DNA from: a virus
Length of the DNA: 33,403 nt
Strand: one strand, 5' to 3'
IMG/VR virus record: IMGVR_UViG_3300012920_000133
Span: 1-33,403 of that record
Each line of letters starts with the position of its first letter. Position 1 is the first letter of the stretch. The notes beneath the pieces are model-generated. The model was not told the DNA's origin. It saw only the letters and a program-made list of their open reading frames with translations, and did not search any database. A program made the translations under genes and the position numbers. This document shows positions 11,540 through 31,448 of the stretch, in pieces.

Positions 11540-11540
11540 A

Positions 11541-11573
11541 GTATTTAAAATAGGGGGGCTTTGAGGCCCCCCA
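11541..11573 (-). terminator. Rho-independent terminator after the capsid gene
   Basis: On the minus strand a 7-bp G/C stem (GGGGGGC at 11572-11566 pairing with GCCCCCC at 11559-11553) with a six-base loop is followed by TATTTTAAATAC. It lies directly after the capsid stop, so it should cut down transcription of tail genes relative to capsid, or give a capsid-heavy transcript by partial termination. Confidence 0.75.
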
Positions 11574-11578
11574 TATTA

Positions 11579-12892: not shown

Positions 12893-12905
12893 TTTGAATC
12901 ACCTT
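12885..12905 (-). promoter_or_regulatory. Strong Shine-Dalgarno of the capsid gene
   Basis: Reading the minus strand, AAAGGTGATT lies just before the ATG at 12892 and is complementary to the usual anti-Shine-Dalgarno end of 16S rRNA over 8 or more bases. Most other starts in the late operon have no such match, so capsid synthesis is probably boosted at translation. Confidence 0.6.
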
Positions 12906-12928
12906 TGTTTTGTGTATTTGAAGTTTAA

Positions 12929-13852: not shown

Positions 13853-13876
13853 AAGAAAAAATTAAATTAATATTTA

Positions 13877-16057
13877 CTATTCCTCAGCTATAATACCGGA
13901 ACCCTGCATAGGATTTGGTATAGCTGTAAGTTGAGAAATCTCTTGTTTCATTTGCATCTCTTGTATTGCACGAGACGCATCAGCTCTATTCTTGATAGAA
14001 TCAAGATTAGAAGAAAACTTTTGTACCTCAAGACGTTTTTTAGCATGGATTTCTTCTCTTTCTGCAGTCTGAAGATCTCCACGTAATTTTTTAACTTCTT
14101 GTTGTAACATTTGAATTTGTTGTTGTAATTGAGAAATAAATCCAGATCGCTCAAGAACACCCTCGGCATCAACAACCTCACTTCTTTTTAATACCTCTAC
14201 TTGATCAATAAGACCGTTTCTGTATAGCTCCATGTAATACTCCATTTGAGCATATCTGTTAGAGGGAAGCATAGAGCCAGAAAGAATGATAACATCATAC
14301 TTACCTTGACTTATGTCGTTGAACTTGCTTATTTCTCTGCCTAAATCATCATATTGAATTTGATTCATGGCAACTTCAGTCATAGCATTATTTGGCTCAA
14401 CTATGCGTATAATTTTTTCTTCTCTATATACGCTTCTCGCATAGTCAATTAAAACTTTTGCAAGTTGATTAAGACTAGATTCTACATCGTCTTTTTTACT
14501 TTTTACTCTTCGTTGACCAAATTCATCTAAAGCTATTGTACCTTTAAATGTTTGGGGTGCCACCGATGCGTCACCCTGCATAATAGCGTAAATACCAAAT
14601 TGTCGCTCAATCATCTGAACATACATTTGTACTTGACTAAATAATGCATTTGGAAATGACTGAGCACCAAATATAACAGGAGCTCCTATATCAGCATCAT
14701 ATTCAATAACAGTGGAGCCAGACTTATTAAGCTCGGCTTCTATTCTAGATTTATCCTGAGCACCTCTAGGTAATAATATTTTTTGATTAGTAGAAGAAGC
14801 TGCGTTTGCGACAATTAAACTATTTAGCTTATTTATCATTTCTTGCAAGCTTCTTACCATAGAAACATCAGAAGTAGGATAAGGGGTCCTATTCCACATA
14901 TTATTTATCGGTATTATAGGATAGTGCTCTGTTGGCAAATATCCGCTCCATAAATGCTTATCACCAATTGTTATACACTGATATATTCTGTTTACCATTA
15001 TTTTTCTATGAGCAATGGCCTTGTTTTCTATCAGGTCTTCTATATTCATTACAGTAAACATAACAGGATCAATCTCAACCATTTCTCCTGTTTGTGGATT
15101 CATCTGAGGGTCTGGAGTATGCAAGTAATTATTTTCACTTAACATTTCAAGTTGCCCAGTAGAATTTACTGTTGTTAAAAAGTTTTTAACTTCAGAATCT
15201 TCAGTCATTATAGTTCCAGCAACATTGATTGCTGGCTTAGCTATATATTCTTTGTACTCCTCATTATTGTATTCATACTCTTCATTAGCATATGGGTCCA
15301 TAATATGATGAACCTCTACTTGCTCTTTGCTATACCGATCTATTATTCTATAAATACTTACATTAGCATCTTGTATATCTCCAGAAAAAACTTGATTTTG
15401 CTGAGGTATTCTTTCTGAATCATTAGTTCTTTCTTCGTCATGAGGTAAGGCTCCTGTAAGATCAAAATCTGGATACATATTTAATATCTGATCCTCTGTC
15501 TTATAAGAAAGCAATAAGCAGTGTGCAGCATCTCTCCATAGATAATCCTTAGCGTTAGGATCTGGATAAACATCTCTTGGATCAATGCTTTTAAATTTTA
15601 CTTCTCCCCTACCACTATTTTCATAGGGATTAACATAAGCATACAAAACACCCCTTCCCATTATAGCATAATCTTGTATAGCTTGTTTTAACTCGGCATT
15701 ACCATCAGACATATCCCACATATAGGACATAAGACTAGTAAATACAGCAGCCATTTTTCTATCGGAATCTTCTCTTGCTGTCGCAGAAAATCTAGGTTTA
15801 TTGGCAGTAAGCATTGCTTTTAACTGCTCAGTAGCCCACGTAATAGCGTTTACAACCACAGCGCCTTGACCCCGTTTTTTCAGTAAATCTATTTGGTTCT
15901 GAGTCCACTGAACTCCAGCTGCAAACATTTCGTTTTCATCCGCGCCCTCTTTCCACTCTGATTGCGCTGAACTATACTCTCTCCAAAGCTCCTCGTTAAA
16001 AAGTTCTGGATGATCTTTGCTGTATCCGTAGGTGCCCGACATTTTTTCTGTATGCAT
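13877..16057 (-). CDS. Portal protein (P22-like)
   Basis: 726 residues, in the size range of P22-type portals. Landmarks: ENEMFAAGVQWTQNQIDLLK near residue 45, AVVVNAITWATEQLKAMLTA near 66-85, FKSIDPRDVYPDPNAKDYLW near 154-173 and MSYMWD between them, all typical of portal clip and wing regions. The C-terminal 90 residues form a coiled coil (ISQLQQQIQMLQQEVKKLR), matching the barrel or its extension. It is next to TerL upstream and scaffold downstream. The start could be either ATG at 16057 or the ATG five codons later; neither has a good ribosome site. Confidence 0.88.
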   Translation of the reverse strand: MHTEKMSGTYGYSKDHPELFNEELWREYSSAQSEWKEGADENEMFAAGVQWTQNQIDLLKKRGQGAVVVNAITWATEQLKAMLTANKPRFSATAREDSDRKMAAVFTSLMSYMWDMSDGNAELKQAIQDYAIMGRGVLYAYVNPYENSGRGEVKFKSIDPRDVYPDPNAKDYLWRDAAHCLLLSYKTEDQILNMYPDFDLTGALPHDEERTNDSERIPQQNQVFSGDIQDANVSIYRIIDRYSKEQVEVHHIMDPYANEEYEYNNEEYKEYIAKPAINVAGTIMTEDSEVKNFLTTVNSTGQLEMLSENNYLHTPDPQMNPQTGEMVEIDPVMFTVMNIEDLIENKAIAHRKIMVNRIYQCITIGDKHLWSGYLPTEHYPIIPINNMWNRTPYPTSDVSMVRSLQEMINKLNSLIVANAASSTNQKILLPRGAQDKSRIEAELNKSGSTVIEYDADIGAPVIFGAQSFPNALFSQVQMYVQMIERQFGIYAIMQGDASVAPQTFKGTIALDEFGQRRVKSKKDDVESSLNQLAKVLIDYARSVYREEKIIRIVEPNNAMTEVAMNQIQYDDLGREISKFNDISQGKYDVIILSGSMLPSNRYAQMEYYMELYRNGLIDQVEVLKRSEVVDAEGVLERSGFISQLQQQIQMLQQEVKKLRGDLQTAEREEIHAKKRLEVQKFSSNLDSIKNRADASRAIQEMQMKQEISQLTAIPNPMQGSGIIAEE

Positions 16058-16084
16058 GCTTGAAATTACAAAATTTTTTTATTA

Positions 16085-17656
16085 TTACGCAAGAAGCCAA
16101 TCGTCACTATTTAACTCTTCTTCCTCTTGATAAAATTCATAGTGCCTTAACTCGTCTGCTATATTCTGTCTTTCTACATAAGAAGGCTCAATTGTAGGGC
16201 CATAAGATTTTAGTTGAGCATAATAAAACCCATCAAGAGTGTCATCGTGCGCCGCTCTAGGATATAATACTAATTCATCCCAAAATTCATGCATATTGTT
16301 TTTTAGAAATACTTTGTTTCTAGCAAACTTAGGTTGAAGGCCCTCAAGTCGATGCGATTTAGATGTTCTAGGATTATGTTTTATTTCTAAACCAGGAATA
16401 TATTCTTTGTATTCGGAGCGAAGATAATCTCTAATCATGTCCTGATAACCAACACTTTCTATTCGTGTTCTTTCTGGCCTCCATTTTTCAAACATATCTA
16501 TAATAGAATGTGTAAGCTGCATTGGTTTTACTCTTTTTCTAAAATACTCTAAACAATAAATATTTTTATCAGAGTCAACACCAATAACAAATATAACACT
16601 AAAGTCACTTCTAGTGGATAAAGTAGAAGCAGGGTCTACTCCCATAAACACAAATACAGGAACAGATAATGGATTTGGCAGTTTTTCTTCTCCAGTAGCC
16701 CCTCTATGAGTTACGTTTAACAACCACCTTCCCCCTGGGGTTTTATCTACTGTTCCATCCCAAAATCTAAGTTGATCAGAAGTAACAAGGCTATCATTGT
16801 CCCCCACTACCTGACACATGTACTCTCTGTAAAAAGAAGATGATTTACCAATCTTTTCCATCTCTTCTTTTAATGTCATAAGATCTTTTACGTTCATCAT
16901 TTGTGGCCATATAGAAACAGGTTTTTGACCTTCTTTTTCTATTAAAGCACTATAATGAAGGGTCTTCCACATTTTAGGCATACCCTTTAACGTAAATACT
17001 AAACAAGACTGATGTTGTGGTGTACCTATATTTACTATTCTGCCTCTAGGATGCGTTCTTTTTATCATGGGCACTAGCGCTTGTAAAAACCATCTACGGT
17101 TTCTATCTATAGCCAAGTCCGTTTTAGTATTTTCTTCATCTTCTGCATCATCAAGAACTACTAATGTAGGTCTCATAGAGTTTACATTAATACCACGTAT
17201 CTGCGTACCCATACCTCTACAGACAATAGTAGTGCCATTTTTTAATACTACCATATCTTCTCGCCATATTTTGGCAGAATGCTCACCCCAATAACCAAAT
17301 ATTCGTTTAAAGTTTACGCTATGCTCTAAAGCATTCTTTATAGTAGATAAAAGGTTTATAGAGTGGGGTCTAGACTTAGATACCAATACAACTACTTTAG
17401 GTTGTTGCTTTCTTTTGTTAGCATAGTCTTCTACAAACATATGCCATAATACATACATAAAGGCTACAACAGTACTTTTTGCAAAACCTCTCGGCGCTAT
17501 AATATTTAAAAATTGATACTTTTCTCTTCTAAGATAGGCAGCTATTTCTTTGTGAAAACCAGGAGATTCTACTTCAAATATTTTTGGCCGTATAACTTTT
17601 CCAAAAAATAAAATATCTTTTGAAAATTGGTCCATTAGCTTTTCTCTGGCACTCAT
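16085..17656 (-). CDS. terL: Terminase large subunit (ATPase and nuclease)
   Basis: 523 residues. ATPase: Walker A APRGFAKST at 54-62 and Walker B LVVLDDAEDEEN at 165-176. Nuclease (RNase H-like): acidic residues in GVDPA (Asp341), RTRIESVGY (Glu400) and AAHDDTLDGF (Asp471/472). It packages DNA into the procapsid by ATP hydrolysis and cuts the concatemer. The TAATG junction with the upstream Cys-rich gene shows translational coupling. All catalytic motifs appear intact. Packaging mode (cos or headful) cannot be told from this sequence alone. Confidence 0.95.
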   Translation of the reverse strand: MSAREKLMDQFSKDILFFGKVIRPKIFEVESPGFHKEIAAYLRREKYQFLNIIAPRGFAKSTVVAFMYVLWHMFVEDYANKRKQQPKVVVLVSKSRPHSINLLSTIKNALEHSVNFKRIFGYWGEHSAKIWREDMVVLKNGTTIVCRGMGTQIRGINVNSMRPTLVVLDDAEDEENTKTDLAIDRNRRWFLQALVPMIKRTHPRGRIVNIGTPQHQSCLVFTLKGMPKMWKTLHYSALIEKEGQKPVSIWPQMMNVKDLMTLKEEMEKIGKSSSFYREYMCQVVGDNDSLVTSDQLRFWDGTVDKTPGGRWLLNVTHRGATGEEKLPNPLSVPVFVFMGVDPASTLSTRSDFSVIFVIGVDSDKNIYCLEYFRKRVKPMQLTHSIIDMFEKWRPERTRIESVGYQDMIRDYLRSEYKEYIPGLEIKHNPRTSKSHRLEGLQPKFARNKVFLKNNMHEFWDELVLYPRAAHDDTLDGFYYAQLKSYGPTIEPSYVERQNIADELRHYEFYQEEEELNSDDWLLA

Positions 17657-17916
17657 TAAAAAAAGTTTATTTGCTTAGTATCTATGTCTTTTTTTTCTTC
17701 TTTTTCTGGCTTGCTATCTTTATGTAAATAAAAACTACATCCATGAATAAGGACTACTCTAGGTATAGAGTCATACCCTCTTTTCTTTAATTCTTTTCTT
17801 GCATTCGATTCCATGCATTGATAATCATTGTCAAAACGAGTATTTGACTTATAGAAGTAATGGCAACTATAACAAGACTTATTATTATCAATAGTCTGCT
17901 TTAACCTCTGATTCAT
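17656..17916 (-). CDS. Small four-cysteine (probable zinc-binding) protein
   Basis: 86 residues from the ATG at 17916. An in-frame ATG five codons earlier exists, but AGGAG lies four bases before this one, so it is preferred. Cys15, Cys18, Cys34 and Cys60 (CYSC...C...GC) could bind one metal ion. The tail is Lys/Glu-rich. It overlaps the end of the TerS candidate by 29 bases and is coupled by TAATG to terL, so it is made together with the terminase. A packaging cofactor role (HNH proteins often sit here) is possible, but no HNH motif is present. Function unknown. Confidence 0.6.
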   Translation of the reverse strand: MNQRLKQTIDNNKSCYSCHYFYKSNTRFDNDYQCMESNARKELKKRGYDSIPRVVLIHGCSFYLHKDSKPEKEEKKDIDTKQINFF

Positions 17917-18721
17917 ACGACTCCTGTTCATCTATTATATATTCAGAATCTTCTATATCATCAGGATTAATATCTTTAGGCAATAACGCCATTAGATCAT
18001 CATCCTCAGCAGCCCCATTTAAAGATGGTTTATTAGGAACAGTGCCACCATCCATGTGAAGCATTTTAGCAAACGTATCATTTACGTTTTTTGCCACCCC
18101 ATATTGTCTAGAAGCAAAGGCTTGCTCTAATATACTCTTGTAATTAGATATAACCTCGCCTTCCGTGACTCCATAATCACTAAGTAGTTTCTTTAGTTCT
18201 TCTGCTACCATCATTTTAATTTTATGGTTCTTAAGTAATCGTTTAAATGTAAGCTTTGGGTTTTGTTGATCGGGTCTATATATCCTTCCAATTGCCTCAA
18301 GGTCGCTTTCTGTAGCCCTTCCCTTTTCAAGCATTACAGAAGCATACAATCCAATGGCCTCTTTAGTTCTTTTCTTGCGTTTTTCTTTGTCTGCCCAGTC
18401 TTCTTTTTTGTTTCCATAATAATCTTTAGATCCTTTGTAGTTATTATAGTCAATAATCTTTTTTGTAGGACTAAATTCTCTTGTATATGGAAAATATACT
18501 AAATATCTAGTACTTGGCTTCCCTTTCGGGCCGTAGGGGCCCTTAACATCAAGCGTTTTACACCCAAATCCAGCATCATCTATGATCCATTGGTCAGGTT
18601 TTCTAGAATCTTGCCAGTAAGTAAAAGAAATGCCTTGTTTGCGCATCTCCTTTACTTCATCTGGGGTATATATATTACAAGAAATATTTTTTTTTCTAAA
18701 TTTCCTGTTGATTGTATCCAA
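17888..18721 (-). CDS. Putative terminase small subunit
   Basis: 277 residues. The N-terminal 110 residues are basic and Tyr-rich with no recognised fold. Residues about 138-230 form a helical block with ATESDLEAIGRIYRPDQQNP, then LTFKRLLKNH, VAEELKKLLSDYGVTEGEVI and a DTFAKMLHMDG end, a layout typical of small terminase subunits (DNA-binding helix-turn-helix, then oligomerisation helices). The acidic C-terminus could contact TerL. Location upstream of terL supports it. It is longer than many TerS proteins, and I base the call on pattern and position only. Confidence 0.55.
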   Translation of the reverse strand: MDTINRKFRKKNISCNIYTPDEVKEMRKQGISFTYWQDSRKPDQWIIDDAGFGCKTLDVKGPYGPKGKPSTRYLVYFPYTREFSPTKKIIDYNNYKGSKDYYGNKKEDWADKEKRKKRTKEAIGLYASVMLEKGRATESDLEAIGRIYRPDQQNPKLTFKRLLKNHKIKMMVAEELKKLLSDYGVTEGEVISNYKSILEQAFASRQYGVAKNVNDTFAKMLHMDGGTVPNKPSLNGAAEDDDLMALLPKDINPDDIEDSEYIIDEQESYESEVKADY

Positions 18722-20788: not shown

Positions 20789-21077
20789 TACTGAAAAATC
20801 AAAATATTATCAAGCACTACAAGCACATCATTCAGATGATGGTAAGCTAACAGGTTTAAAAGATAAAGCTGAATCTTTTAGAAGCAGTATAAGAATAAAG
20901 TATGAAGAGAATAGACGTTCATATATGGTTGCAAGTAATTCTTTTGAAACAGCTTATATGGAAGGGAACCTTGAGTTACTTCTTGAATTAACTAAAAGAA
21001 TGGAACAAATAGAACATCAACAAAGAAACCTTAGAACATTAATGGAAGATTCTTTCAATGAAGAACTTCCTAAATAA
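20781..21077 (+). CDS. Small helical protein of unknown function
   Basis: 98 residues, almost entirely helical by composition, with heptad-like spacing in the second half (LELLLELTKRMEQIEHQQRN). It starts after GGAAAAA and overlaps the next gene by 20 bases. Its order just before the conjugation cassette makes it a possible accessory of that cassette, though nothing in the sequence proves this. Confidence 0.6.
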   Translation: MSSTEKSKYYQALQAHHSDDGKLTGLKDKAESFRSSIRIKYEENRRSYMVASNSFETAYMEGNLELLLELTKRMEQIEHQQRNLRTLMEDSFNEELPK

Positions 21078-21441
21078 TATATTTTATCGAATATTGATAA
21101 AGTATTTTAGATGGATTGTAAATCATTCTTGTATTGAATTGTCTGAACATAAGAACTTTAAATTTGTAAAAGGCATAAGCAATACAGGTGATTTTAATTT
21201 GTATGTGCATATTGATAAAAATGGTAAGCCTATCATTGACTCAATACTTCTTCATTGCACTAAGTATGACCAGCATAAAGAGATTCCTATGACTTATATA
21301 CATAGGTCTTGGAGTCATGTTATGGATGGATCAGTATTATATACTATTAAAAATTTATCGTTTGATGATGCGATGAATAATATGAGAAAACTAAGTATAG
21401 AAACAGAAATAATAGAAATAAAAAACGAACAAACATTATGA
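21058..21441 (+). CDS. Unknown alpha/beta protein upstream of the Ubl cassette
   Basis: 127 residues. Contains strands such as DFNLYVHIDKNGKPIID and ending helices (SFDDAMNNMRKLSIETEI). The N-terminus is aromatic and basic, but it is not a convincing signal peptide. GGAAG lies nine bases before the ATG, inside the previous gene. Its stop overlaps the Ubl start by four bases (ATGA), so it is translated with the cassette. I do not recognise a family. Confidence 0.6.
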   Translation: MKNFLNNIFYRILIKYFRWIVNHSCIELSEHKNFKFVKGISNTGDFNLYVHIDKNGKPIIDSILLHCTKYDQHKEIPMTYIHRSWSHVMDGSVLYTIKNLSFDDAMNNMRKLSIETEIIEIKNEQTL

Positions 21442-21701
21442 TAGTACACGTAAAAAACAACAATAAAAATCAATCACAAACTGTAGAGGGTGCATTTGAA
21501 ACTCTTTCTGATGTTATAGAAGAGCTAAGTAAATATCAAAACTATGACGATTTATGTCCTCCTGATTCTAGCTTTGTATTTAGAAGAGGAGACCTAATTG
21601 GTAAAACAATCAATTATGATACTCAATTGAAATCATCTATGGTAAACAATGAAGTATTCATCTCAGTAACTTCGAGTAAGATCAGTGCTGGAAATTATTA
21701 A
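21438..21701 (+). CDS. Probable ubiquitin-like (beta-grasp) protein
   Basis: 87 residues, the size of a single beta-grasp domain. Strand IVHVKN, then a hairpin strand leading into the helix FETLSDVIEELSKYQ (about 20-34), then short strands FVFRRGDLIG and EVFISVTSSKISAGNY at the end, which is the order of a ubiquitin-like fold. The tail ends SAGNY rather than GG, so activation would need removal of NY to expose Ala-Gly, or a non-canonical tail. The fold call depends strongly on context: E2-, JAB- and E1-like genes follow at once. It overlaps the previous gene by ATGA and the next by 17 bases. Confidence 0.5.
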   Translation: MIVHVKNNNKNQSQTVEGAFETLSDVIEELSKYQNYDDLCPPDSSFVFRRGDLIGKTINYDTQLKSSMVNNEVFISVTSSKISAGNY

Positions 21702-21888
21702 TGAATACGAGCTCATAGTATTTAATAAGCTATTAAAACAAATTAAAGGGGAGCAAGACAATTTATTTTCTAATAATGAATATAAAACAGAATTGCTCCC
21801 TGATAATTTATACGACTTGTGCCTTGAAATTATTCAAAAAGAAAATGACAAGGATAAACCAAAGTTTAATTATACAAGACTATGGTAA
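21685..21888 (+). CDS. 67-residue protein between Ubl and E2-like genes
   Basis: Starts with GTG at 21685 inside the end of the Ubl gene; no ATG exists in the frame. The product is helical (EIINEYELIVFNKLLKQIKG) with an acidic middle and ends KPKFNYTRLW. It overlaps the E2-like gene by seven bases. Function unknown. Position inside the cassette suggests an adaptor or regulator. Confidence 0.5.
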   Translation: MLEIINEYELIVFNKLLKQIKGEQDNLFSNNEYKTELLPDNLYDLCLEIIQKENDKDKPKFNYTRLW

Positions 21889-23273
21889 TACAAAAAGTAA
21901 AAGATTTAGCAATAAATATTTTTGAGCAAGAAGGTTGCGAAATAGATCTGTCAATAAATTATAACGAAAACAGAACGGCAGTTCTTACTGTTCTTTATCC
22001 TGATTTATATGTAGAAAACACCGAATACAGTGACACTTGTATAGATATTGAAAACTTTGTTTTTAAAATAAATATGTCAATACAACATATAAACGGTGAA
22101 ATACATTTACAAAGATTCATAGATAAAAGAGCATACAATCTTAGCCCTACTTCAGAGATGGTTGCCGCTCGTTATTTGCATTCTCATGTAAATAATTATT
22201 CTTCTAATGAAATATGTTTAGGTGACAAAGAAGTAAATGCATTATGGTTAAAACTATCATGCTATAACTTTATGGGTACATCAGATGATGAAAAAATATC
22301 AGACACATTGTTTGATTTCTTTTTCTTATTCAATAAGGTGTTTCACATAGAAGATGAAGATGGTGGGCCTTGGGTAAGAATAAATGACATATATGATGGG
22401 AGCGATAATGCTAAAATAATCGAAGACATACCTGAAAATGATTTTCAAGAAGTTGCTGAAGATCATTCTTTAACTCATGAATGGCTTGATGATTATATAG
22501 AAGAACATTCTTATGCTCATTACAATTTTTGCCCAGAGACAGTTACATATTTATTAGAATCTTTTGAAGTATCAAGAGATATATTGACAGATAAAAGAAA
22601 TAACATTATAGATTATATCTACTCAGAATTTATTAATCCTTTAATATCAGTTTATCCTTTTCATAGAAGTCTATCTGAATATGATTCAGATATTAATATT
22701 TATAATACTTCTTTACGAAGTGGTTTAATCTCAGAAAAAGAAAAATATTACTCTAAATTTTTATTTTTTTGTTATTACATGTATGATCTTTGGGAAAGCA
22801 ATAAGGATGGGAGTACATATACTTATGTAAATCTTATTGATGATCTAGAAATAATACATGATGAATACGATAAGGTAGAAATAGATCCTGTGTTAAGTAC
22901 TGATTTTTGTTATTTCCGTACTAGAAGAACTGATAATGAAATATTTAAACGTGAAGAGCTCGGTGAGCTTTTTAATCATTTAATAACCGATGAAAAATCA
23001 GATAATAGTATAGACGATATAGTGTCTTCACTAGAACGTACTTCATTTTATATAAATGGAAGGTTTTATAGTGGAGAAGTACCAGACTTAGATGATCTGG
23101 AAACAAATAATTTTTATATAAACGACTACACTGAGAACATATACTTATATGAACAAGAAAACAAAATCAAAGAAACAATCATTAACTGTATTTACTTACA
23201 ATCAAGAAACAACTCGACCATTAACGAAATACAAAGGTACACCTCAAGTTTTGATTGGGGAGCAAGTACATGA
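21882..23273 (+). CDS. E2-like protein (candidate conjugating enzyme) with long C-terminal region
   Basis: 463 residues. Residues 20-130 have beta strands (AVLTVLYPDLYVEN; FVFKINMSIQHINGEIHL) followed by RYLHSHVNNYSSNEICLGDK, where His100-x-His102 and Cys112 occupy the places of the E2 HPN...C signature (prokaryotic E2-like proteins often read HPH...CLG). Cys112 is therefore the candidate thioester site. The C-terminal 330 residues are acidic and helical without a recognised domain. The gene overlaps the JAB gene by up to 125 bases. E2 identity is a motif- and context-based inference. Confidence 0.5.
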   Translation: MVIQKVKDLAINIFEQEGCEIDLSINYNENRTAVLTVLYPDLYVENTEYSDTCIDIENFVFKINMSIQHINGEIHLQRFIDKRAYNLSPTSEMVAARYLHSHVNNYSSNEICLGDKEVNALWLKLSCYNFMGTSDDEKISDTLFDFFFLFNKVFHIEDEDGGPWVRINDIYDGSDNAKIIEDIPENDFQEVAEDHSLTHEWLDDYIEEHSYAHYNFCPETVTYLLESFEVSRDILTDKRNNIIDYIYSEFINPLISVYPFHRSLSEYDSDINIYNTSLRSGLISEKEKYYSKFLFFCYYMYDLWESNKDGSTYTYVNLIDDLEIIHDEYDKVEIDPVLSTDFCYFRTRRTDNEIFKREELGELFNHLITDEKSDNSIDDIVSSLERTSFYINGRFYSGEVPDLDDLETNNFYINDYTENIYLYEQENKIKETIINCIYLQSRNNSTINEIQRYTSSFDWGAST

Positions 23274-24501
23274 AGTAGACCGATACTTGTGTAATAAATA
23301 TAGTGAAGTAGAATGGTGTGGCATTTTATTTTATACTGAAGAAGGATATATCGATAATCCTGATGAGTACAAAATACATGTACATGCTATGTATCCAATG
23401 CATATCGGAGATCAATCTTCTACTGAAATAGAAAACTATGGAGAAGTAGAACATTACATCCAAGCAAGACCAGAGCTAGACGATATGCGTCAAGGATTTA
23501 TTCATTCACATAATGATATGGATACATTCTTTTCTGGCACAGATGAAAAACAACTTGTAGAAAGCGCTACTGCATATGATTTATTTTTATCTATCATAAC
23601 TAATAATAATGGAAATTATGTAGCTAGAGTTAGTTTTCCTGTTGATGCCATTACAACAAAAAAGGGAACTCTTAATGTAGTTGAAGATTCTGTAGGATAT
23701 CTAGATTGTAAAGTTCAATACATGAGATATTACAATATAGAAGACAAGATACTAGAAAGAGTTAAAGAACTAGATGAAGCATACAAGAAAGAACAATCTA
23801 ACGCTATGAAACGAATGGGATATACAAAAAACAAAAACAATTATTATACATCATATGATTATAGCAACTCTTGGGTTAGCGATATCGAATCATTTGAACC
23901 ATCTACATTCTTTGAAGATATAGAACTAAAACAATATCATGAAAGCTTGTTAGGTAGTGATTATGATGTAGATGTAGTTCATGCTATGTACAATGATTAC
24001 TTAAAAACAAATAATCATTTTGAAATAAGTATAGTAGAAGAAGAAGCTATATCTAGATGTACAAAAGAAATACTTGTTTGCACATTTAATTCTTTTGGAG
24101 CCAAGCACGGACATGGTATAAAAGAAGGCGCCGTAAAAAACTATATATCTAGTTTTAAAACTATGTATAGAACAAATAAATTTAATGACAAAATAAAACC
24201 AGAAGAACTATTTGATAATGCTAAAAATTTAGTAAATCTATATCAAGAGTATTCTGAAAGGGTTGTTATTGAATCTTTTGTAAATGCATGGAATGTAATA
24301 CATGATTCATTAGAGCAAGACGAAGCTCTAAGGTCTCAGTTTTATAATTTTATTTACTGTTCGTTATTGATGTATATATCTATAAAATCAGAAATACATT
24401 ATGATCCATATTGCGGACTACCATATGATGTTATTAAATACTATAAAGGTTTTAATACTGTAGATACTACTTATGAACAAGGAGGTTTCTTATGGTACTA
24501 A
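23149..24501 (+). CDS. JAB/MPN+ metalloprotease (deubiquitinase-like)
   Basis: 450 residues. Residues 40-165 are a JAB domain: SEVEWCGILFY supplies the conserved Glu (53 or 55), and GFIHSHNDMDTFFSGTDEKQ holds an exact JAMM motif, His119-x-His121-x7-Ser129-x2-Asp132, which binds Zn2+ and cleaves isopeptide or peptide bonds next to ubiquitin-like tails. The remaining 285 residues are helical and unassigned. Not fused to NlpC/P60 as in lambda-type tail proteins. The ATG at 23149 lies 125 bases inside the E2-like gene with no clear ribosome site; an in-frame TTG at 23251 would cut the overlap to 23 bases. Confidence 0.85.
   Translation: MNKKTKSKKQSLTVFTYNQETTRPLTKYKGTPQVLIGEQVHEVDRYLCNKYSEVEWCGILFYTEEGYIDNPDEYKIHVHAMYPMHIGDQSSTEIENYGEVEHYIQARPELDDMRQGFIHSHNDMDTFFSGTDEKQLVESATAYDLFLSIITNNNGNYVARVSFPVDAITTKKGTLNVVEDSVGYLDCKVQYMRYYNIEDKILERVKELDEAYKKEQSNAMKRMGYTKNKNNYYTSYDYSNSWVSDIESFEPSTFFEDIELKQYHESLLGSDYDVDVVHAMYNDYLKTNNHFEISIVEEEAISRCTKEILVCTFNSFGAKHGHGIKEGAVKNYISSFKTMYRTNKFNDKIKPEELFDNAKNLVNLYQEYSERVVIESFVNAWNVIHDSLEQDEALRSQFYNFIYCSLLMYISIKSEIHYDPYCGLPYDVIKYYKGFNTVDTTYEQGGFLWY
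24485..24494 (+). promoter_or_regulatory. Strong Shine-Dalgarno of the E1-like gene
   Basis: GGAGGTTTCTTATG: GGAGG five to six bases before ATG, placed inside the last codons of the JAB gene. One of the few near-consensus ribosome sites here; it fixes the start at 24492. Confidence 0.7.
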
Positions 24502-25157
24502 AAGGCACCAAGGGTAGAGCTAGATTTAGCAAAGCTGAATGGTTTGTTCAAATGCAAAATCTTCATGTGTTAATTATTGGTGCTGGTGGCATTGGCTCAT
24601 GGTTAGGTCATTTCCTGGCCAGAGCTGGTGCATCACCATATATACAAGATATGGATAATTATGACATAAATAATATTGGTGGACAATTATGCACAATGAA
24701 TAGTTTACATAAAAACAAAGCAGAGTCTTTGAAAAATGTAGTAGACATTATGCTTGGCCCTGATAATAATACAATGTCATGTATAACATATGAATTTACA
24801 GGTGATCAACCTGCATTACCAATAACATTTTCTTGTGTTGATAGCATGAAAGCTAGAAAAGAGATATACAAAAGCTGGCTAGCTCTTGGAGATAAACGTG
24901 AAATATTTATTGACGGGAGAATGGGAGCTGAAGCATCTCAAGTTTTTACTGCAACCAAAGAAAAAGATAACTATATGAATAACTGGTTTCCTGACACTGA
25001 AGCAAGTATAGCGCCGTGCGCATACAAAGCGACATCTCATATTGGTAGCATGACTGCTAGTTACATGATGAATGTGCTTACTAATTACTTGTCTGATAAC
25101 AGGGTACCAGATAGCATATGTTACTATGGACAAGATTTAAACATAGAAATAATATAA
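24492..25157 (+). CDS. E1/ThiF/MoeB-like adenylating enzyme
   Basis: 221 residues, close to a minimal MoeB/ThiF domain. Rossmann nucleotide loop VLIIGAGGIGSWLGHFLARA with Gly30, Gly32, Gly33 and Gly35; acidic strand end DMDNYDINNIGGQL (Asp53, Asp55, Asn61, Gln65) as in E1 enzymes, where the usual Arg-Gln is Gly-Gln; Lys75; and CVDSMKAR with Asp117. Cys176 in IAPCAYKATSHIGS is a possible active-site thiol. No CxxC zinc pair as in MoeB. It should adenylate the C-terminus of the ubiquitin-like protein. Overlaps JAB by ten bases and is coupled to the next gene by TAATG. Confidence 0.85.
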   Translation: MVLKGTKGRARFSKAEWFVQMQNLHVLIIGAGGIGSWLGHFLARAGASPYIQDMDNYDINNIGGQLCTMNSLHKNKAESLKNVVDIMLGPDNNTMSCITYEFTGDQPALPITFSCVDSMKARKEIYKSWLALGDKREIFIDGRMGAEASQVFTATKEKDNYMNNWFPDTEASIAPCAYKATSHIGSMTASYMMNVLTNYLSDNRVPDSICYYGQDLNIEII

Positions 25158-25987
25158 TGAACCTAGAAAACAGAAGTAATTATTCTCTTATTCCATTTAA
25201 TTTATTAGAGAAAAGTGGCTCAATATGTGATTTAAAATCATTAAATGTATTTCCATACAGATTAAAAGAGTACGTGCCCATTGGGGCACTGTACTTTAAC
25301 TGGGCAAAAGATACATTTAAAACTCATGATGTAATAAATGGTTCTCTTTATAATGTACATATAAATAAAGAAGGTAAACCTGACCTTATATTTAAATCAA
25401 GAACTATAGAAAATAATCAAGAGAACATATTAGCTTCTCATTATTTATCAATAATGTTCTTTCATAAATATAATTATTTCCCATACACATTACATCCTAA
25501 TCTTAAACCTAATGTAATAAATAGAATGTGGCTTTCAAACAGGAAAGGTACACAGTTATATTGTGTGAAAGATGAAGTAAAAAATACTAATTATAATATA
25601 ATACTTACTCCAGATTCATACATATATGATAACGATGGAAACTGTATAGGATTTTTGGAGATTCCTTATAAATTATATATATTAATGCTTCATCAGACAT
25701 ATTCTAAGCCATTTTTAGGGGTAACAAAGTATGGAGAGGATGACCCTAATTATGCTGATTTAATATATGATGTATATCATAATCAGACATTAGTAATAAA
25801 TGAAAGATATGATCCGCATTCAACATATACGGATACATCTAATGTTAATAATATAATAGAACATTTATATTCTGAAAATGAAATACCTAATAAAAATGTA
25901 CCTATTAAAAAAGTAGATAATTTATTTAAATATATTACTGGTGAAGATATAAATATTAAACCTAAAAAAAACAAAATTAACTTATGA
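25157..25987 (+). CDS. Unknown protein, possible PRTRC-B/second E2-like component
   Basis: 276 residues from the ATG at 25157, chosen because it shares a base with the E1 stop (TAATG); a longer frame starts at 25118 but would overlap by 40 bases. Landmarks: GSLYNVHINKEGKPDLI (about 62-78), YTLHPNLKPNVINRMWLSNR (about 110-129) and TPDSYIYDNDGNCIGFLEIP (about 151-170), with Cys163. The order of a mid-protein HPN-type block, a W-[LI]-S block and a late DxxGxCxG block recalls PRTRC system protein B of plasmid cassettes as I remember it. Not certain. Its end overlaps the ATPase start by ATGA. Confidence 0.4.
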   Translation: MNLENRSNYSLIPFNLLEKSGSICDLKSLNVFPYRLKEYVPIGALYFNWAKDTFKTHDVINGSLYNVHINKEGKPDLIFKSRTIENNQENILASHYLSIMFFHKYNYFPYTLHPNLKPNVINRMWLSNRKGTQLYCVKDEVKNTNYNIILTPDSYIYDNDGNCIGFLEIPYKLYILMLHQTYSKPFLGVTKYGEDDPNYADLIYDVYHNQTLVINERYDPHSTYTDTSNVNNIIEHLYSENEIPNKNVPIKKVDNLFKYITGEDINIKPKKNKINL

Positions 25988-26769
25988 GTGATACAAAATA
26001 CAAAGCTATTGTATTTGATATAGATCATTCACTAACAACATTAGGAGGACCTGAAAGACAAGAAAAAGTCTTCGGGCTTCCTCCTATATCTCATGTTGGT
26101 GGACTTGCGTCTATAAACAAAGTACTATCTAAACTTTTAGTAAAAAGAACAATAACAAAAAAACATGAACTACTTGGCGAGTATGCTGTAGATGAGGTTA
26201 TTGATTTTTCTGATAAACTAAGAGAGGCTGGTGTGAACATGATGATTATCGACACAATTACTATGCTAGGCACACAAGAGCGTACCGAGATTGTAAGAGA
26301 AAGAACTGGAGATAATAAAAGTAAATTAGAATCATTAGACCAACAAGGATGGGGTATATATGGTGCTAGAATGGAAAAGTTTATAAATTTTTTATCAAAA
26401 TGTAACTTTCCTATTATTATTACTGGTCATGTAAATAGAGAGCCAGATGAGTTTGGTAGACCTATTGAATATCCTGATATAAAGGGTAGCACTAAAACTT
26501 CAATTGGTAGATACTTTGATGTAATACTTTATTCAAAAGTAAATAAGTCTGGAGATAATACGGCAACATATAGCTGGATTACAAAAGCAGATTCTAGATA
26601 TTTATTTGCAAAGAATAGAGGTGATTATTTAGAACCAATGATGGATCAAAATCTTTCTATTATTTTATCTAAATATAAAGAAAACGGAATAAACGCCCCG
26701 AAGATACTAATACTTGGTGATACAGGTAATGGTAAATCGTGGTCACTACAAACAATAAATAATAAATAA
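25984..26769 (+). CDS. RecA/Sak4-like ATPase with Walker A at the C-terminus (apparent circular permutation)
   Basis: 261 residues. Residues 84-95 (VNMMIIDTITML) are a Walker B strand; FPIIITGHVNREPDEFGRPI (142-161) and SIGRYFDVILYSKV (173-186) follow the usual order of Sak4/AAA_24-type phage recombination ATPases. But the P-loop, LILGDTGNGKSWSLQTI with Lys251 and Ser252, is at 242-258, ten residues from the end, instead of near residue 10. The N-terminus KAIVFDIDHSLTTLGG would be the strand that normally follows P-loop helix 1. Next to an SSB-like gene, a role in single-strand annealing or strand exchange is likely. Confidence 0.7.
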   Translation: MSDTKYKAIVFDIDHSLTTLGGPERQEKVFGLPPISHVGGLASINKVLSKLLVKRTITKKHELLGEYAVDEVIDFSDKLREAGVNMMIIDTITMLGTQERTEIVRERTGDNKSKLESLDQQGWGIYGARMEKFINFLSKCNFPIIITGHVNREPDEFGRPIEYPDIKGSTKTSIGRYFDVILYSKVNKSGDNTATYSWITKADSRYLFAKNRGDYLEPMMDQNLSIILSKYKENGINAPKILILGDTGNGKSWSLQTINNK

Positions 26770-26788
26770 TAAATATCTGAGGTATAAT

Positions 26789-27448
26789 ATGTTAATTGCA
26801 GGAAAATCAAATCCTACAAAATCAAACAATAATAGTATTGCAGAAGGAGTATTTGCAAAGAAAGGTGTAATTACTGGATGCGTACAAAAAACAGGAGAGG
26901 TACTTGGGCAAAAGAATTATGTACCTGACGCTTTTGTTGAATTTACAATAAATTCAGACGGATACGATAATAAAGTATTAGTATTTGGTAGTGTAATAAG
27001 AGACAAGCAAACTGGAGCTTTTTCAGCTATGGGATCTGCAGGTAAAGTAGATCAAACATTTGCTAGAATAGGTGCATTAAATGGCCTTTCTGATGAACAG
27101 CTTGCAATATCACAAAGCCCAGAAGGCAGATTACATTTTACAAATGATGTTATAACAGCGTCAATAGGTAAGCCTGTTTATTTTATTTCTTATGTATACG
27201 GCAAAAGAAATAATAGTGACAAACCAGCTTACACTAATTTTAATTATTTAGTCGGCGCTAGTGATGATGTAAATGCAGAAGATGCATACAATGAAATATA
27301 TACAGCACTATCAGCATCTGATTATGACTTTAGAAAACTACAAGAAGGAAGAGAGTATCTTTCTAAATTTAAAGATAACAATCCTTTACCTAGTCAAGCA
27401 ACTCCGAATATTTCTTCTAGCAATAATTCTGATGATTTATTATTCTAA
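26789..27448 (+). CDS. Single-stranded DNA-binding protein (SSB-like)
   Basis: 219 residues. The body is beta-rich (VPDAFVEFTINSDG; NKVLVFGSVIRDKQTG; KPVYFISYVYGKRN) consistent with an OB fold, and the end is a Ser/Asn-rich linker capped by DDLLF, the acidic tip by which bacterial and phage SSBs recruit partners. TGAGGT precedes the ATG by about six bases. It lies between the Sak4-like ATPase and primase-helicase, the usual SSB setting. A terminator follows. OB-fold residues cannot be assigned individually by eye. Confidence 0.7.
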   Translation: MLIAGKSNPTKSNNNSIAEGVFAKKGVITGCVQKTGEVLGQKNYVPDAFVEFTINSDGYDNKVLVFGSVIRDKQTGAFSAMGSAGKVDQTFARIGALNGLSDEQLAISQSPEGRLHFTNDVITASIGKPVYFISYVYGKRNNSDKPAYTNFNYLVGASDDVNAEDAYNEIYTALSASDYDFRKLQEGREYLSKFKDNNPLPSQATPNISSSNNSDDLLF

Positions 27449-27496
27449 GAGTACTCTAAGTTAAGTTAAAGTTAATTGTTTTTGGTTAAACAAATG

Positions 27497-27534
27497 CTCC
27501 CCTTTAGTTGATTCTAGAGGGGAGTTTTAATTTT
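27497..27534 (+). terminator. Rho-independent terminator after SSB-like gene
   Basis: CTCCCCT (27497-27503) pairs with AGGGGAG (27518-27524), with inner TAG/CTA pairing, followed by TTTTAATTTT. It divides the early operon before the primase-helicase. Confidence 0.8.
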
Positions 27535-27548
27535 CAATACAAATAAAT

Positions 27549-29330
27549 ATGAGCCAACGTTATATAGAATTCGTAGTGGATTCTACATTTAACAGAGGTC
27601 ACTTTATACCAGAAGAAAGATTATCCGGATACGTTACTGCAAATATAAATAAGGTAATGTATATGTCGTACTATTCTTATGATAAGAAAATGCTAGACCA
27701 TGTAAAACAGATGAGTTCTGTTGCTGGTTTTAGAGGCACAAGATATCATCATAAAACAATAGTAGATATAGATGGAGAGTCATCTGATTTAAAAACTGTA
27801 ACTAATGTAGCGTATGAGATTGTTGAATACCTAACTTTATATCATGAGATAGAAGAAAATAATATACAAGTATGGTTTTCTGGAGGTAAAGGTTATCACA
27901 TACACATGCCTAATGTGTTTTCATTTGAAGCATCTGATCATTTACAAGAAGATGTTTCAGCTACATTTAAATCATTTTTTATTAGATGGAATAAATTTGT
28001 TGATACAGCGCCTACTTCTTCTACTGGATTAATTAGAGCGCCGTATAGCCTCCATAAATCTGGTTTACATAAAGTGCCTATATCTCACGAAAAACTATCT
28101 GAGTTAAATAAAATGTCTGATCCTGAGGATGCAATAGCGCAGTTGGCAGGTGATGATTTTATATCTCAAAGAATATTATATCCATTTAATGATAAAGATA
28201 ATGGTGTATTAGCTGATGAAGTAATTACTGGAGAAATAAAAACTAACTGGCATCAAATGAATGACTATGATAATCCATCATCAGTTGTTACTTGTATGCA
28301 AAAATTAGCATTACGAGGCCCTTTGGGGGGCCGTCGTCATAAAGACGCTTTACGATTAATAAGTTCTTGGAGAAGACATGGTATACTTGCTTCACTATCA
28401 AGAGTAATGTTATTAAAATGGTTAGATATACCAGATAATACAAAAGAAGCTGCTGAGTTTACTAAATTAGTAGAAAATGTTTACGACAAGCAATACAGTT
28501 ACGGATGTAAAGATGAAGTTATGTCTGAGTATTGTGACTCTAAATGTATATTCTATAAGAACAAAGACTTTGTATTAGAAGTAAATAACGCTGATACAAT
28601 GTCACAAAACTTATTGAACTACATAGAAAAAGTAGACTATCAAGGCATAAATATACTAAACCTTTATGGCATTGATGGTACATACAAGTTTGTACCTGGA
28701 GAAATAATGGTTGTAACAGGAGATACAGGTGCTGGTAAAAGTGCTTTTGTACAAGATTTATTATGTAGGATAAAACAGAAAACACTGTATTTAAATTTAG
28801 AGATGCATGAATCTCTTTTATACAGAAGATTTCTTCAAAACACTATGAATAAATCAAAAGAAGAAATAATAGAAATGGTAAGAGAAGGTCAAATATTAAA
28901 TGAACATTTAGACTTTATTGATATACTTTCTCAGTCACCAGATATATCTACATTATCTAGATTAGTTTCTCAAAAAGATTATCGTTTTGTGGTTGTTGAT
29001 ACTTCAGATGGAGTACGAGCAGAAAAAGCAGGTAATAATGAGTTTGTTAAACTAGGATTAATAGTAGAAGCATTTAGAGAATTAGCTCAAAACAAAGACA
29101 TACAAATAATATTAATACATCATTTAAAGAAAAGAGATGTTCCTACTAATCCAATTGATTTAAATGATTTGTCTGGTAACAGAGCTAATGTAACTAAAAT
29201 GGATCATGTATTTGCACTAGAAGGAGCAGATACGGATAAACGTCTACGTTCACTAAAGAATAGAGATGAAGGACAATTAATTATAAACTTAAAATTTGAC
29301 TACAATGTTTTTAGATTCCAACGAAGTTGA
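27549..29330 (+). CDS. Primase-helicase: AEP (PrimPol) primase fused to DnaB-like helicase
   Basis: 593 residues. Primase: IVDIDGESSD with Asp73 and Asp75 (metal binding), WFSGGKGYHIHM (109-120) and LIRAPYSLHK (161-170), the three archaeo-eukaryotic primase motifs. Middle: Cys250, then GGRRHKDAL, then Cys320, Cys329 and Cys333, a spacing like the PriL Fe-S or zinc domain. Helicase: Walker A TGDTGAGKSAF with Lys397, Glu418 in YLNLEMHES, Walker B RFVVVDTSDG (Asp484) and IQIILIHHLKK, as in SF4 RecA-type replicative helicases. It would unwind and prime the phage fork. No DNA polymerase is in this window. Confidence 0.9.
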   Translation: MSQRYIEFVVDSTFNRGHFIPEERLSGYVTANINKVMYMSYYSYDKKMLDHVKQMSSVAGFRGTRYHHKTIVDIDGESSDLKTVTNVAYEIVEYLTLYHEIEENNIQVWFSGGKGYHIHMPNVFSFEASDHLQEDVSATFKSFFIRWNKFVDTAPTSSTGLIRAPYSLHKSGLHKVPISHEKLSELNKMSDPEDAIAQLAGDDFISQRILYPFNDKDNGVLADEVITGEIKTNWHQMNDYDNPSSVVTCMQKLALRGPLGGRRHKDALRLISSWRRHGILASLSRVMLLKWLDIPDNTKEAAEFTKLVENVYDKQYSYGCKDEVMSEYCDSKCIFYKNKDFVLEVNNADTMSQNLLNYIEKVDYQGINILNLYGIDGTYKFVPGEIMVVTGDTGAGKSAFVQDLLCRIKQKTLYLNLEMHESLLYRRFLQNTMNKSKEEIIEMVREGQILNEHLDFIDILSQSPDISTLSRLVSQKDYRFVVVDTSDGVRAEKAGNNEFVKLGLIVEAFRELAQNKDIQIILIHHLKKRDVPTNPIDLNDLSGNRANVTKMDHVFALEGADTDKRLRSLKNRDEGQLIINLKFDYNVFRFQRS

Positions 29331-29838
29331 ACAAGGATTGCATGAGACCAAGGTAACTCCTTTATCCAGCCTTAGTGCAGAAGAATTAAACAATTTGTTT
29401 AGTAGTGATATACAAAACAATACAATTATTTCGAGCACAGGGCAGGTTGAGGGATATTTGTTTGCTATAAATAAATTAGTAAATGACATTGGTAACTTAA
29501 AAGACCTAAAAAAAAATTCTATTGAGTTTTATAACAATAAAATAGAATCAACAGAACGTACTATAGATATATTGAAAGATAGAATAAGTGAATTTATGCT
29601 ATCATCAGATAATTCTAAGATACCTACGCAAGCTGGTACAGCTTACTTTACTAAAAGAACTAAAGAAGTTTACCCAGATGATGAAACACTTATTGAATTT
29701 TCTAAACAGAATAAATTAGAAATGACAGTAAAAATATCTCCTAATAAAAAAGTGATTAAAGATCACATAAAAAATGGAGGATCAGTTCCAGAGGGTTATT
29801 CTACCCATGAGGTAACAAGCTTGAGTATAAGAAAATGA
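29305..29838 (+). CDS. Gp157-like protein (siphovirus Gp157 / Gam-like)
   Basis: 177 residues from the ATG at 29305 (a TTG three codons earlier is less likely). Helical middle IEFYNNKIESTERTIDILKD (73-92) and RISEFM, then beta segment TAYFTKRTKEVY, and the closing block SPNKKVIKDHIKNGGSVPEG followed by SLSIRK. This helix-strand-P-x-K-K-x-I-K order is characteristic of the Gp157 family, found near phage recombination genes. It overlaps the primase-helicase by 26 bases and the resolvase by ATGA. Exact biochemical role is not established. Confidence 0.75.
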   Translation: MFLDSNEVEQGLHETKVTPLSSLSAEELNNLFSSDIQNNTIISSTGQVEGYLFAINKLVNDIGNLKDLKKNSIEFYNNKIESTERTIDILKDRISEFMLSSDNSKIPTQAGTAYFTKRTKEVYPDDETLIEFSKQNKLEMTVKISPNKKVIKDHIKNGGSVPEGYSTHEVTSLSIRK

Positions 29839-30242
29839 GTTTGTTTCTCAAGATAAAAATACCAGGGAATCCTCAATCTCAACCACGCCATAGACATACT
29901 GTTCGTGGTAAAGTAGTAAGGACATATGATCCAAAGTCTAATGACAAAAAAGAATTAGCTAAATATATAACAGAAAATTATTCGTTTGAAAAAACAGATA
30001 GGCCCTTGTTGGTAGTTATACAAGCTAGTTTTAAAATACCAAGCTCTTATTCTAAGCTTCAAAGAAAACTAATAAATAATAAATATAGACCTAAGAAGCC
30101 TGATATAGATAATATAGCTAAGTATTATTTAGACGCAATGAACAATGTTGTTTACTTTGATGATGCTCAAATAATAGGATTAAATATAGTAAAGACATAT
30201 TCAGAAAAACCAAGTGTAGTAATAAGATTACACTCTATATAA
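29835..30242 (+). CDS. RusA-like Holliday junction resolvase
   Basis: 135 residues, the family's usual length. N-terminal strand LFLKIKIPGNPQSQPRHR and the signature KKPDIDNIAKYYLDAMNNVV with Asp90, Asp92 and Asp100, then YFDDAQIIGL (Asp109, Asp110), give the metal-binding acidic cluster of RusA dimers. It resolves four-way DNA junctions from replication and recombination before packaging. Coupled by ATGA to the Gp157-like gene and followed by a strong terminator that closes the replication block. Confidence 0.92.
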   Translation: MSLFLKIKIPGNPQSQPRHRHTVRGKVVRTYDPKSNDKKELAKYITENYSFEKTDRPLLVVIQASFKIPSSYSKLQRKLINNKYRPKKPDIDNIAKYYLDAMNNVVYFDDAQIIGLNIVKTYSEKPSVVIRLHSI

Positions 30243-30324: not shown

Positions 30325-30684
30325 ATGCCATTAAAATACTTTAATCAAACAGATTTTGATTCCTGTAGTCCATCATGTGATATTACTGATGTAAATGGGG
30401 ATTTATTATCTATGCTAGATTCAGCTAGAGAGATTGCTGGTGTTCCTTTTAAAATTAATTCTGCTTATAGATCTTATACGCATGAGTTAAATCAAGGAAG
30501 AGATGGTAAATCTTCTCATGTAAAAGGTCTTGCTGTTGATATATCTGCAACAGACTCTGTTAATAGATTTAAAATATTATTAGCATTAGTTGAGTCTGGA
30601 TTTAACAGAATAGGTATACATGATGCATTTATACATGTTGACATTGATAAAGATAAATCGCAAAATGTCCTTTGGTTATATTAA
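30325..30684 (+). CDS. Endolysin, M15 family D-Ala-D-Ala carboxypeptidase-like
   Basis: 119 residues, a single compact domain. Zn ligands: SSHVKGLAVDIS with His65 and Asp72, and FIHVDID with His104; SAYRSYTHELNQ (46-57) is the usual upstream loop. M15_3-type peptidases cut peptide cross-links in peptidoglycan. No signal peptide or binding domain, so export should depend on the holin-like genes that follow. Preceded by an 80-base gap with the terminator; the ribosome site is weak. Confidence 0.9.
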   Translation: MPLKYFNQTDFDSCSPSCDITDVNGDLLSMLDSAREIAGVPFKINSAYRSYTHELNQGRDGKSSHVKGLAVDISATDSVNRFKILLALVESGFNRIGIHDAFIHVDIDKDKSQNVLWLY

Positions 30685-30963: not shown

Positions 30964-31448
30964 AAAAAAAATTAGCTAATCTAGGTTTTGTAGATTTACT
31001 AACTAAAAAAGCGCCGAAGTTAGGTGCAAAAGCAGCTACCGTGGTAGCTAGTATAGCAACTGGTGGTAGAAGTGACCAAATATTAGAATTATTTAAGAAA
31101 GAAGTAGGTCTTTCTACTGAGTTGTCTGATGATGATAAAGAAATTATTTTAAGTCAAATGCAACATGATTTAAATGAGTTTCAGATGGAAATACAAGATG
31201 CTCAAAATGCTCGTAATGCTGAGTTTAAAAGACAAAATTCTAAAAATGCTTTTACTCGAAATATGAATACTATATTAGCGGCTTCAATTATTGCAGGAGC
31301 TTTTGGTTTAGTTGGTATTCTTATATTTACTGATGATATAGGAGGCAACTCACAAACATTAGTAAACGTAGCATTTGGTGCAATCTTTACAGCTTTTACT
31401 ACTGTAACAGGTTATTACTTTGGTAAGTCTACTTTAGACAATGATTAA
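30960..31448 (+). CDS. Holin-like membrane protein (3TM GTA-holin type)
   Basis: 162 residues. A basic N-terminus and charged helical middle (about 55-100) are followed by two clear membrane segments, about 104-123 and 133-153, ending YYFGKSTLDND. The final V-x-x-YYFG-[KS]-S pattern is typical of the GTA_holin_3TM type of holins. It would permeabilise the inner membrane for the M15 endolysin. Its stop overlaps the stop of the opposite-strand phosphoesterase by a few bases, marking the convergence of early and late transcription. Confidence 0.6.
   Translation: MKKKLANLGFVDLLTKKAPKLGAKAATVVASIATGGRSDQILELFKKEVGLSTELSDDDKEIILSQMQHDLNEFQMEIQDAQNARNAEFKRQNSKNAFTRNMNTILAASIIAGAFGLVGILIFTDDIGGNSQTLVNVAFGAIFTAFTTVTGYYFGKSTLDND

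Follow-up and report, generated by a model that had tools for sequence, protein, structure and literature searches.

We describe a predicted ubiquitin-like conjugation cassette in the IMG/VR virus record IMGVR_UViG_3300012920_000133, whose 33,403 bases (33% GC) are referred to here as the window. The cassette encodes a ubiquitin-like protein (Ubl), a small helical-looking protein, an E2-like protein, a JAB metalloprotease, an E1/ThiF-like activating enzyme and a fast-evolving protein that we call Y. That these genes together constitute a conjugation pathway is in our view very probable. We lean only slightly towards the broader statement that the pathway belongs to the core of its phages, acts at the stage of infection and has host proteins as its targets. 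All six overlapping genes listed at positions 21438-25987 by a first-pass annotation of the sequence were recovered as open reading frames (ORFs) on one strand. The same annotation had treated the cassette as peculiar to one phage, and this view did not hold, as the module proved to be conserved in many phages, among them the cultured phage crAss001.

The E1 protein matched Pfam ThiF with an E-value of 2.3e-14, in agreement with its earlier assignment, and the phage family phrog_15670 with 2.6e-33. Fourteen aligned E1 homologues have in common the nucleotide loop (G-x-G), D53, D55, N61, K76, D117, R122, D141-G-R and Cys176, and a catalytic-type cysteine was found in all phage E1 homologues examined. 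Profile matches of E1 in the PDB were led by UBA5, MccB, UBA6 and UBA1 and included Cap2; the phage cysteine aligns at the position of the UBA5 catalytic cysteine, in a stretch where the alignment is weak. The nearest NCBIfam types are ThiF and MoeB. Compared with the window E1, that of crAss001 (L002) is extended at its N terminus by about 150 residues (8554-9000), and such extensions recur in several Steigviridae.

For the JAB protein, a match to Prok-JAB was obtained with an E-value of 5e-4 and 20.3 bits, which is below the 25-bit Pfam cut-off. The exact JAMM motif reported earlier is indeed present (E55, H119-S-H121-x7-S129-x2-D132) and shows little or no variation among 13 homologues, and the pattern was detected in 84 of 88 viral JAB homologues. 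The best PDB matches of the JAB profile, all weak, were CSN5, Rpn11 and JAMM1. Its predicted role is maturation of the Ubl and deconjugation.

The 87-residue Ubl was not recognized by sequence libraries. It was matched with an E-value of 2e-12 by a family hidden Markov model (HMM) made from the genes that occupy the same place in relatives. An AlphaFold2 model (57 sequences) with a predicted local distance difference test score (pLDDT) of 83 has the order beta-beta-alpha-beta-beta, and in a Foldseek search of the PDB ubiquitin and NEDD8 rank first (E 2-4e-4, TMt about 0.70-0.74), which bears out the beta-grasp modifier that had been suggested at this position. A PDB profile search with the Ubl family gave no relevant match, and Pfam matches to F_actin_bind and Nebulin were below the cut-off and taken as chance. 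The conserved domain end reads K-x-x-[SA]-G and is followed by a tail. Gly stands at this end in 72 of 73 distinct homologues, a frequency that is not fully independent because the HMM seed had been picked with a filter on the C-terminal motif. All 73 proteins extend past this position, 16 of them by 1-5 residues and 57 by >50 residues; in the window, Gly85 is followed by the two-residue tail Asn-Tyr. Such a tail suggests a pro-Ubl that needs proteolysis and would be matured by JAB. A general rule that a tail after Gly accompanies JAB, which the jumbo phage PhiXhv-12 would suggest, was dropped because bacterial operons break it. In the cyclic oligonucleotide-based antiphage signaling system (CBASS), cGAS is conjugated via a C-terminal Gly or Ala, so that a single Gly suffices (PMC10097602).

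The 463-residue protein had no match in sequence libraries. We consider it likely to be an E2 because H102, C112 and G114 are invariant, the model of its core is confident and a chain of homology leads to known E2 enzymes via the E2-like proteins of bacterial operons. Among 58 non-redundant homologues, H102, C112, G114, E157 and G161 are invariant (58/58), N46, Y98, S101, S158 and P163 are nearly so, and H-P-H replaces H-S-H in two. Of the His-x-His...Cys112 signature read earlier, H102 and Cys112 thus stood, and H100, kept in 52 of the 58, turned out not to be invariant. Residues ~1-170 were modeled confidently by AlphaFold2 (pLDDT around 90 or higher for most of them) with a helix, four strands, a loop carrying H102 and C112 and two helices, which is the order of the ubiquitin-conjugating (UBC) fold. 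Cellular relatives of the phage E1 (L097, L101 and L108) sit in operons with a protein that bears HPH...C-x-G-N. With these bacterial operon E2s, the phage core was aligned by hhalign with a probability of 77% and an E-value of 2e-5; against a larger bacterial set the real alignment reached just 11%, the maximum among 30 column-shuffled control profiles from that set being 0.7%. When eight bacterial operon E2-like proteins were combined into a profile, UBCH7 and UBE2A/B were the leading PDB matches (best E 0.012), with HPH aligned to HPN and the cysteines aligned to each other. A direct PDB profile search with the phage E2-like family gave no relevant match. The significant named BFVD matches of the model were uncharacterized phage proteins, several from crAss-like phages, and probably represent the same family. 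The idea that the protein is a second JAB, with HSH as part of its motif, was rejected: an Asp at the JAMM spacing is missing, and the modeled elements follow another order.

Protein Y likewise found no match in sequence libraries, Pfam and NCBIfam included. At most loci, the next gene after E1 encodes a counterpart of Y; these proteins frequently carry, close to the N terminus, a motif resembling [D/E]-x-V-P-[L/I]. The first-pass annotation had called this gene PRTRC-B-like, an assignment that we abandoned because PRTRC_B is itself an E2: the Tunicatimonas protein scores as Prok-E2_D (3.5e-26) and has the active site N-G-x-x-C-L-G, of which Y has no trace. Neither Y nor the E2-like gene could be placed as a PRTRC member, as there was no NCBIfam match and hhalign against three PRTRC_B sequences gave nothing. 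The PRTRC plasmid system (Iyer type 6d) nonetheless resembles the cassette in that its ThiF is homologous to the phage E1 (hhalign 99.7%) and the Ubl, E2 and JAB types are common to both. Its gene order (E-C-F-B-ThiF) is unlike that of the phages, and PRTRC_C stops exactly at Gly. No homologues of PRTRC ParB, E, F or B were found in the cassette; against the curated PRTRC models the sole match was ThiF, with 34 bits versus a cut-off of 145, and there was none for Ubl, E2 or Y.

With E1 as the query, tblastn detected 78 phage records (E 1e-5), most of them from Fpv phages of Flavobacterium, crAss-like phages of Bacteroides and jumbo phages of Xanthomonas/Erwinia; the crAss-like records with a family shown are Steigviridae. 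A scan of IMG/VR yielded 207 relatives, 80 of which were kept. Ubl, E2, JAB, E1 and Y are complete and in this order at 78 of 95 loci, six more are without only a detected Y, and most others are cut by a contig end. This gene order is far from chance, and the neighborhood check proposed earlier found JAB and ThiF with these neighbors in nearly every related phage. At most loci the cassette lies between the DNA primase gene and genes for uracil-DNA glycosylase (UDG), exonuclease, RusA and ribonucleotide reductase (RNR), and in the window's own clade it stands beside Sak4, DnaB, Gam and RusA genes; the location next to replication genes noted for the single phage thus extends to a place inside the replication block across relatives. 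In crAss001 the cassette corresponds to gp79-gp75, annotated as hypothetical proteins, 'metalloprotease' and 'thiamine biosynthesis protein'. In an E1 tree, a branch with 100/100 support splits 68 phage sequences from all 26 bacterial ones, and the window's clade nests within the phage E1s. The E1 of PhiXhv-12, which has a long branch, is placed on the bacterial side and may have been acquired independently. Matches to ThiF in Acinetobacter 'phage' sequence (L015) were discarded as an ordinary host TcdA-like gene beside a prophage.

Within the cassette the rates of evolution differ. Ratios of non-synonymous to synonymous substitution (dN/dS) were calculated by pairwise NG86 for nine phage pairs after removal of the E2 codons that overlap JAB; two of the nine are near-copies of each other, which leaves eight independent pairs. 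Median ratios were 0.12 for E1, 0.23 for JAB, 0.27 for Ubl, 0.54 for E2 and 0.52 for Y, compared with 0.12 for neighbor genes. E2 and Y were above the neighbor median in 9/9 pairs (Wilcoxon p 0.004) and evolve approximately four times faster; JAB (9/9) and Ubl (9/10) also exceeded it, by a smaller margin, while E1 showed no difference. Between the window and L001, the ratios were 0.17 for E1, 0.34 for JAB and 0.51 for Y. Judged by these values, purifying selection acts on E1, JAB and Ubl. We strongly disfavor the notion of a remnant or moron that has no function in infection: ratios near 1 for Y and parts of E2 in some close pairs would fit it, but the selection on E1, JAB and Ubl, the catalytic residues kept over very deep divergence and the conserved order speak against it.

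The activation step is therefore constrained like the replication genes, whereas the parts expected at targets change fast. This matters for the possibility that the pathway is a regulatory component of the replication module, which would modify the phage's own replication and repair proteins or the replisome of the host, in analogy to the action of SUMO and ubiquitin on PCNA, or of UFM1 at stalled forks. Its constant place between primase and the UDG, exonuclease, RusA and RNR genes in diverse phages argues in favor, as does the run of overlapping, probably co-translated genes that in the window extends to the Sak4-like gene. We nevertheless regard this alternative as unlikely, because the rates of E2 and Y are several times those of the adjacent replication genes, unlike what a fixed internal partner would show, and the site may reflect just shared early expression. 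The combination of fast E2 and Y with a constrained E1 favors changing partners, probably of the host, over a fixed partner in the replisome, and the speed at which E2 and Y evolve leans towards host takeover or counter-defense.

For such a host-directed pathway we infer the catalytic steps, and above all the targets, from the computed genes, Ubl fold, motifs, gene order, tail and rate contrast. The proteins would be made by the phage during infection. JAB would trim the pro-Ubl after its conserved Gly, and E1 would adenylate this Gly and take over the Ubl as a thioester on Cys176. Cys112 of the E2-like protein, helped by His102, would then accept the Ubl and pass it to amines of target proteins, from which JAB might also remove it. 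The E2-like protein and Y would probably pick the targets, most likely host proteins, in the service of takeover or counter-defense. We tentatively entertain, without giving it the better chance, the general idea that many crAss-like and related phages possess a complete conjugation machinery of their own, with JAB-matured pro-Ubls and with a fast-evolving E2 and Y choosing host targets, as an offensive tagging that mirrors the bacterial Bil and CBASS systems.

Several points weigh against a host-directed conjugation pathway. We know of no target, E3 or conjugate for the cassette. The model of the E2-like protein is unreliable past about residue 180, and the comparison with the UBC fold by Foldseek gave nothing significant for the whole model, Cap2 appearing twice in the top ten with E 0.23-0.26. 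Rate contrasts can also come from relaxed constraint, and pairwise NG86 is crude. The tail alone is no proof of maturation because Ubls of bacterial operons can stop exactly at Gly despite an adjacent JAB gene (L100, L115). Finally, E1, Ubl and JAB also occur together in sulfur-carrier systems, and in some of these the Ubl has a short tail after Gly. In a system of this kind E1 would make a Ubl thiocarboxylate that donates sulfur to a nucleotide, tRNA or cofactor, and JAB would trim the carrier; the closeness of the phage E1 to ThiF/MoeB types agrees with it. We consider it improbable, since the cassette departs from the ThiS/MoaD pattern: an E2-like gene with an invariant Cys accompanies it, the E1 Cys is invariant and the PDB profile matches are led by UBA5, and no rhodanese, other sulfur-transfer partner or sulfur-metabolism gene is among the named neighbors.

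We compared the conjugation cassette with known systems. Bil consists of BilA (Ubl), BilB (E2), BilC (JAB) and BilD (E1), in what we take to be the same order as in the window. The four kinds of protein are thus shared; here they form a phage core module with the extra gene Y. By analogy, the cassette could serve as a Bil-like defense against competing phages that places the Ubl on structural proteins of a rival. The common order fits this proposal, as does the antiviral role of those bacterial E1/E2 systems whose role is known. We give it little credence, because in almost every relative the cassette is part of the core replication block rather than placed as accessory or defense cargo, PADLOC gives only generic E1 similarity and the E1 phylogeny is phage-specific. 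An effect of Bil on phage tails is cited in PMC12948488.

Bacterial operons with E1, E2, JAB and Ubl were predicted in 2006 (PMC1779556), and conjugation in CBASS was shown later (PMC10097602). The operons, including those of L097, L101 and L108, share with the phages a Ubl with a C-terminal Gly, a His/Cys E2-like protein, JAB and E1 as neighbors; in L101 the order Ubl-E2-JAB-E1 is also the same, and the Ubl belongs to the ThiS family (E 1.5e-6). In contrast to the bacterial operons, the phage E1s form a separate clade, the phage Ubls are all tailed after Gly, the phage E2 reads Y-x-H-S-H (rarely H-P-H) where the bacterial one has H-P-H, and the phage cassette has the extra gene Y and sits in a phage replication block. 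Type II CBASS (Cap2/Cap3; PMC10097602) also has E2 and JAB partners and a Cap2 related to the phage E1. The cassette differs from it by separate E1 and E2 genes in place of the Cap2 fusion and by a dedicated Ubl. No CBASS cyclase or effector was found, PADLOC matching only E1 in the cassette and nothing in ten further ORFs of the window, which upholds the initial judgment that this is not CBASS. A phage-encoded Ubl-like protein with JAB also occurs as TAPI/TAPK of Lambda and T1 (PMC1779556), where it lies in tail genes with NlpC/P60 and without E1/E2. The cassette, by contrast, lies in the replication block, on the other strand from the structural genes, and had no Pfam match to NlpC/P60; the earlier exclusion of lambda-type tail assembly is thus sustained. 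The UFM1 pathway (UBA5, UFC1) contributes the top PDB profile match of the phage E1, UBA5, a likeness from which we claim no membership. Pro-UFM1 has a short tail after Gly, which is trimmed by cysteine proteases and not by JAB.

The phage cassette is a variant of bacterial E1/E2/JAB/Ubl systems; priority for the variant is not certain. The main-text passages checked in genome papers on crAss001 and crAss-like phages do not mention ThiF, JAB or ubiquitin. Full-text searches for crAss-like phages with ThiF or ubiquitin, with subscription papers, preprints and supplements outside their scope, returned no description of such a cassette. Bacterial Ubl conjugation has so far been known mainly as anti-phage defense. 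If our proposal is true, phages tag proteins too, by means of a core module that is present in a cultured gut phage, and crAss001 would offer a laboratory route to learn how phages use protein tagging and a testable handle on crAss-like biology. Conjugation to host proteins and the replisome, Bil-like and sulfur-carrier alternatives differ in what they predict for mass spectrometry of infected cells. The finding also corrects the misleading annotation 'thiamine biosynthesis' in many phage records.

The genes of the locus are compiled in Table 1. The six cassette ORFs overlap head to tail by 17, 7, 125, 10 and 40 nt, and Y overlaps the Sak4-like gene by 4 nt, for which reason the block is probably co-translated. 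The overlap of the E2-like and JAB genes (23149-23273) is read in different frames, and overlaps of tens to ~250 nt occur there in many relatives. An upstream 127-residue gene overlaps the Ubl gene by 4 nt, and its product had no match in Pfam or PADLOC. The 67-residue protein had no family match in library searches; its equivalents have 58 (L018) and 63 residues (L019). Downstream, the order from the Sak4-like ATPase to RusA is kept in L001, L016, L017 and L018. The minus strand carries the structural genes (terminase, portal and major head protein) at 173-18721; from ~19 kb onward, replication genes occupy the plus strand.

Table 1. Genes of the predicted conjugation cassette and its surroundings in the window
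Feature	Position	Strand	Basis
127-residue gene, uncertain cassette member	21058..21441	+	directly 5' of Ubl; equivalents in L018, L019
Ubl, probable ubiquitin-like beta-grasp modifier, 87 residues	21438..21701	+	AlphaFold2/Foldseek and family HMM
Small helical-looking protein, 67 residues, GTG start	21685..21888	+	ORF; positional equivalents in L018, L019
E2-like, likely conjugating protein, 463 residues	21882..23273	+	invariant H102, Cys112-x-Gly114; AlphaFold2; hhalign chain
JAB/JAMM metalloprotease, 450 residues	23149..24501	+	Prok-JAB, exact JAMM motif
E1/ThiF-like activating enzyme, 221 residues	24492..25157	+	Pfam ThiF; invariant Cys176
Protein Y, 289 residues, fast-evolving	25118..25987	+	conserved position; high dN/dS
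Context outside cassette: Sak4-like ATPase, 219-residue protein, DnaB-like primase/helicase, Gam-like protein, RusA resolvase	25984..30242	+	

Further loci were noted in the course of the survey. A separate cassette in the Xanthomonas jumbo phage PhiXhv-12 (L008, 5213-10491) combines E1 with an 892-residue protein that has HPH...C-L-G and a Cys-rich tail. A phmmer search with the E2-like part of this protein gave no match, and there was no Prok-JAB match in the whole 227-kb record. Its candidate Ubl of 140 residues ends in Gly-Gly and is not recognized by the Ubl HMM. A 12-kb contig of a metagenome-assembled genome labeled Clostridium sp. (L095) carries a phage-type cassette and is probably a phage contig. 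The cellular operons in genome_contigs L097 (5930-8585), L101 (1143-3882) and L108 (2289-4994) comprise the HPH...C-x-G-N E2-like protein, JAB and E1, joined in L097 and L101 by a Ubl gene. Their E2-like proteins, that of L101 with a Cys-rich C-terminal tail, were not clearly recognized as E2 by Pfam, NCBIfam or PADLOC. In the window itself, a calcineurin-like phosphoesterase gene (31445-32332, minus strand) lies past a lysis-type M15 peptidase gene (30325-30684). Finally, Saccharibacteria (L100, L103, L104, L107, L112, L115, L119, L123 and L124) have a compact JAB-E1-Ubl operon whose Ubl usually ends in or near Asn-Gly. It is preceded by a protein, membrane-like where whole, with a C-terminal G-x-C-F-G or similar, which is perhaps a membrane-anchored E2-like protein.

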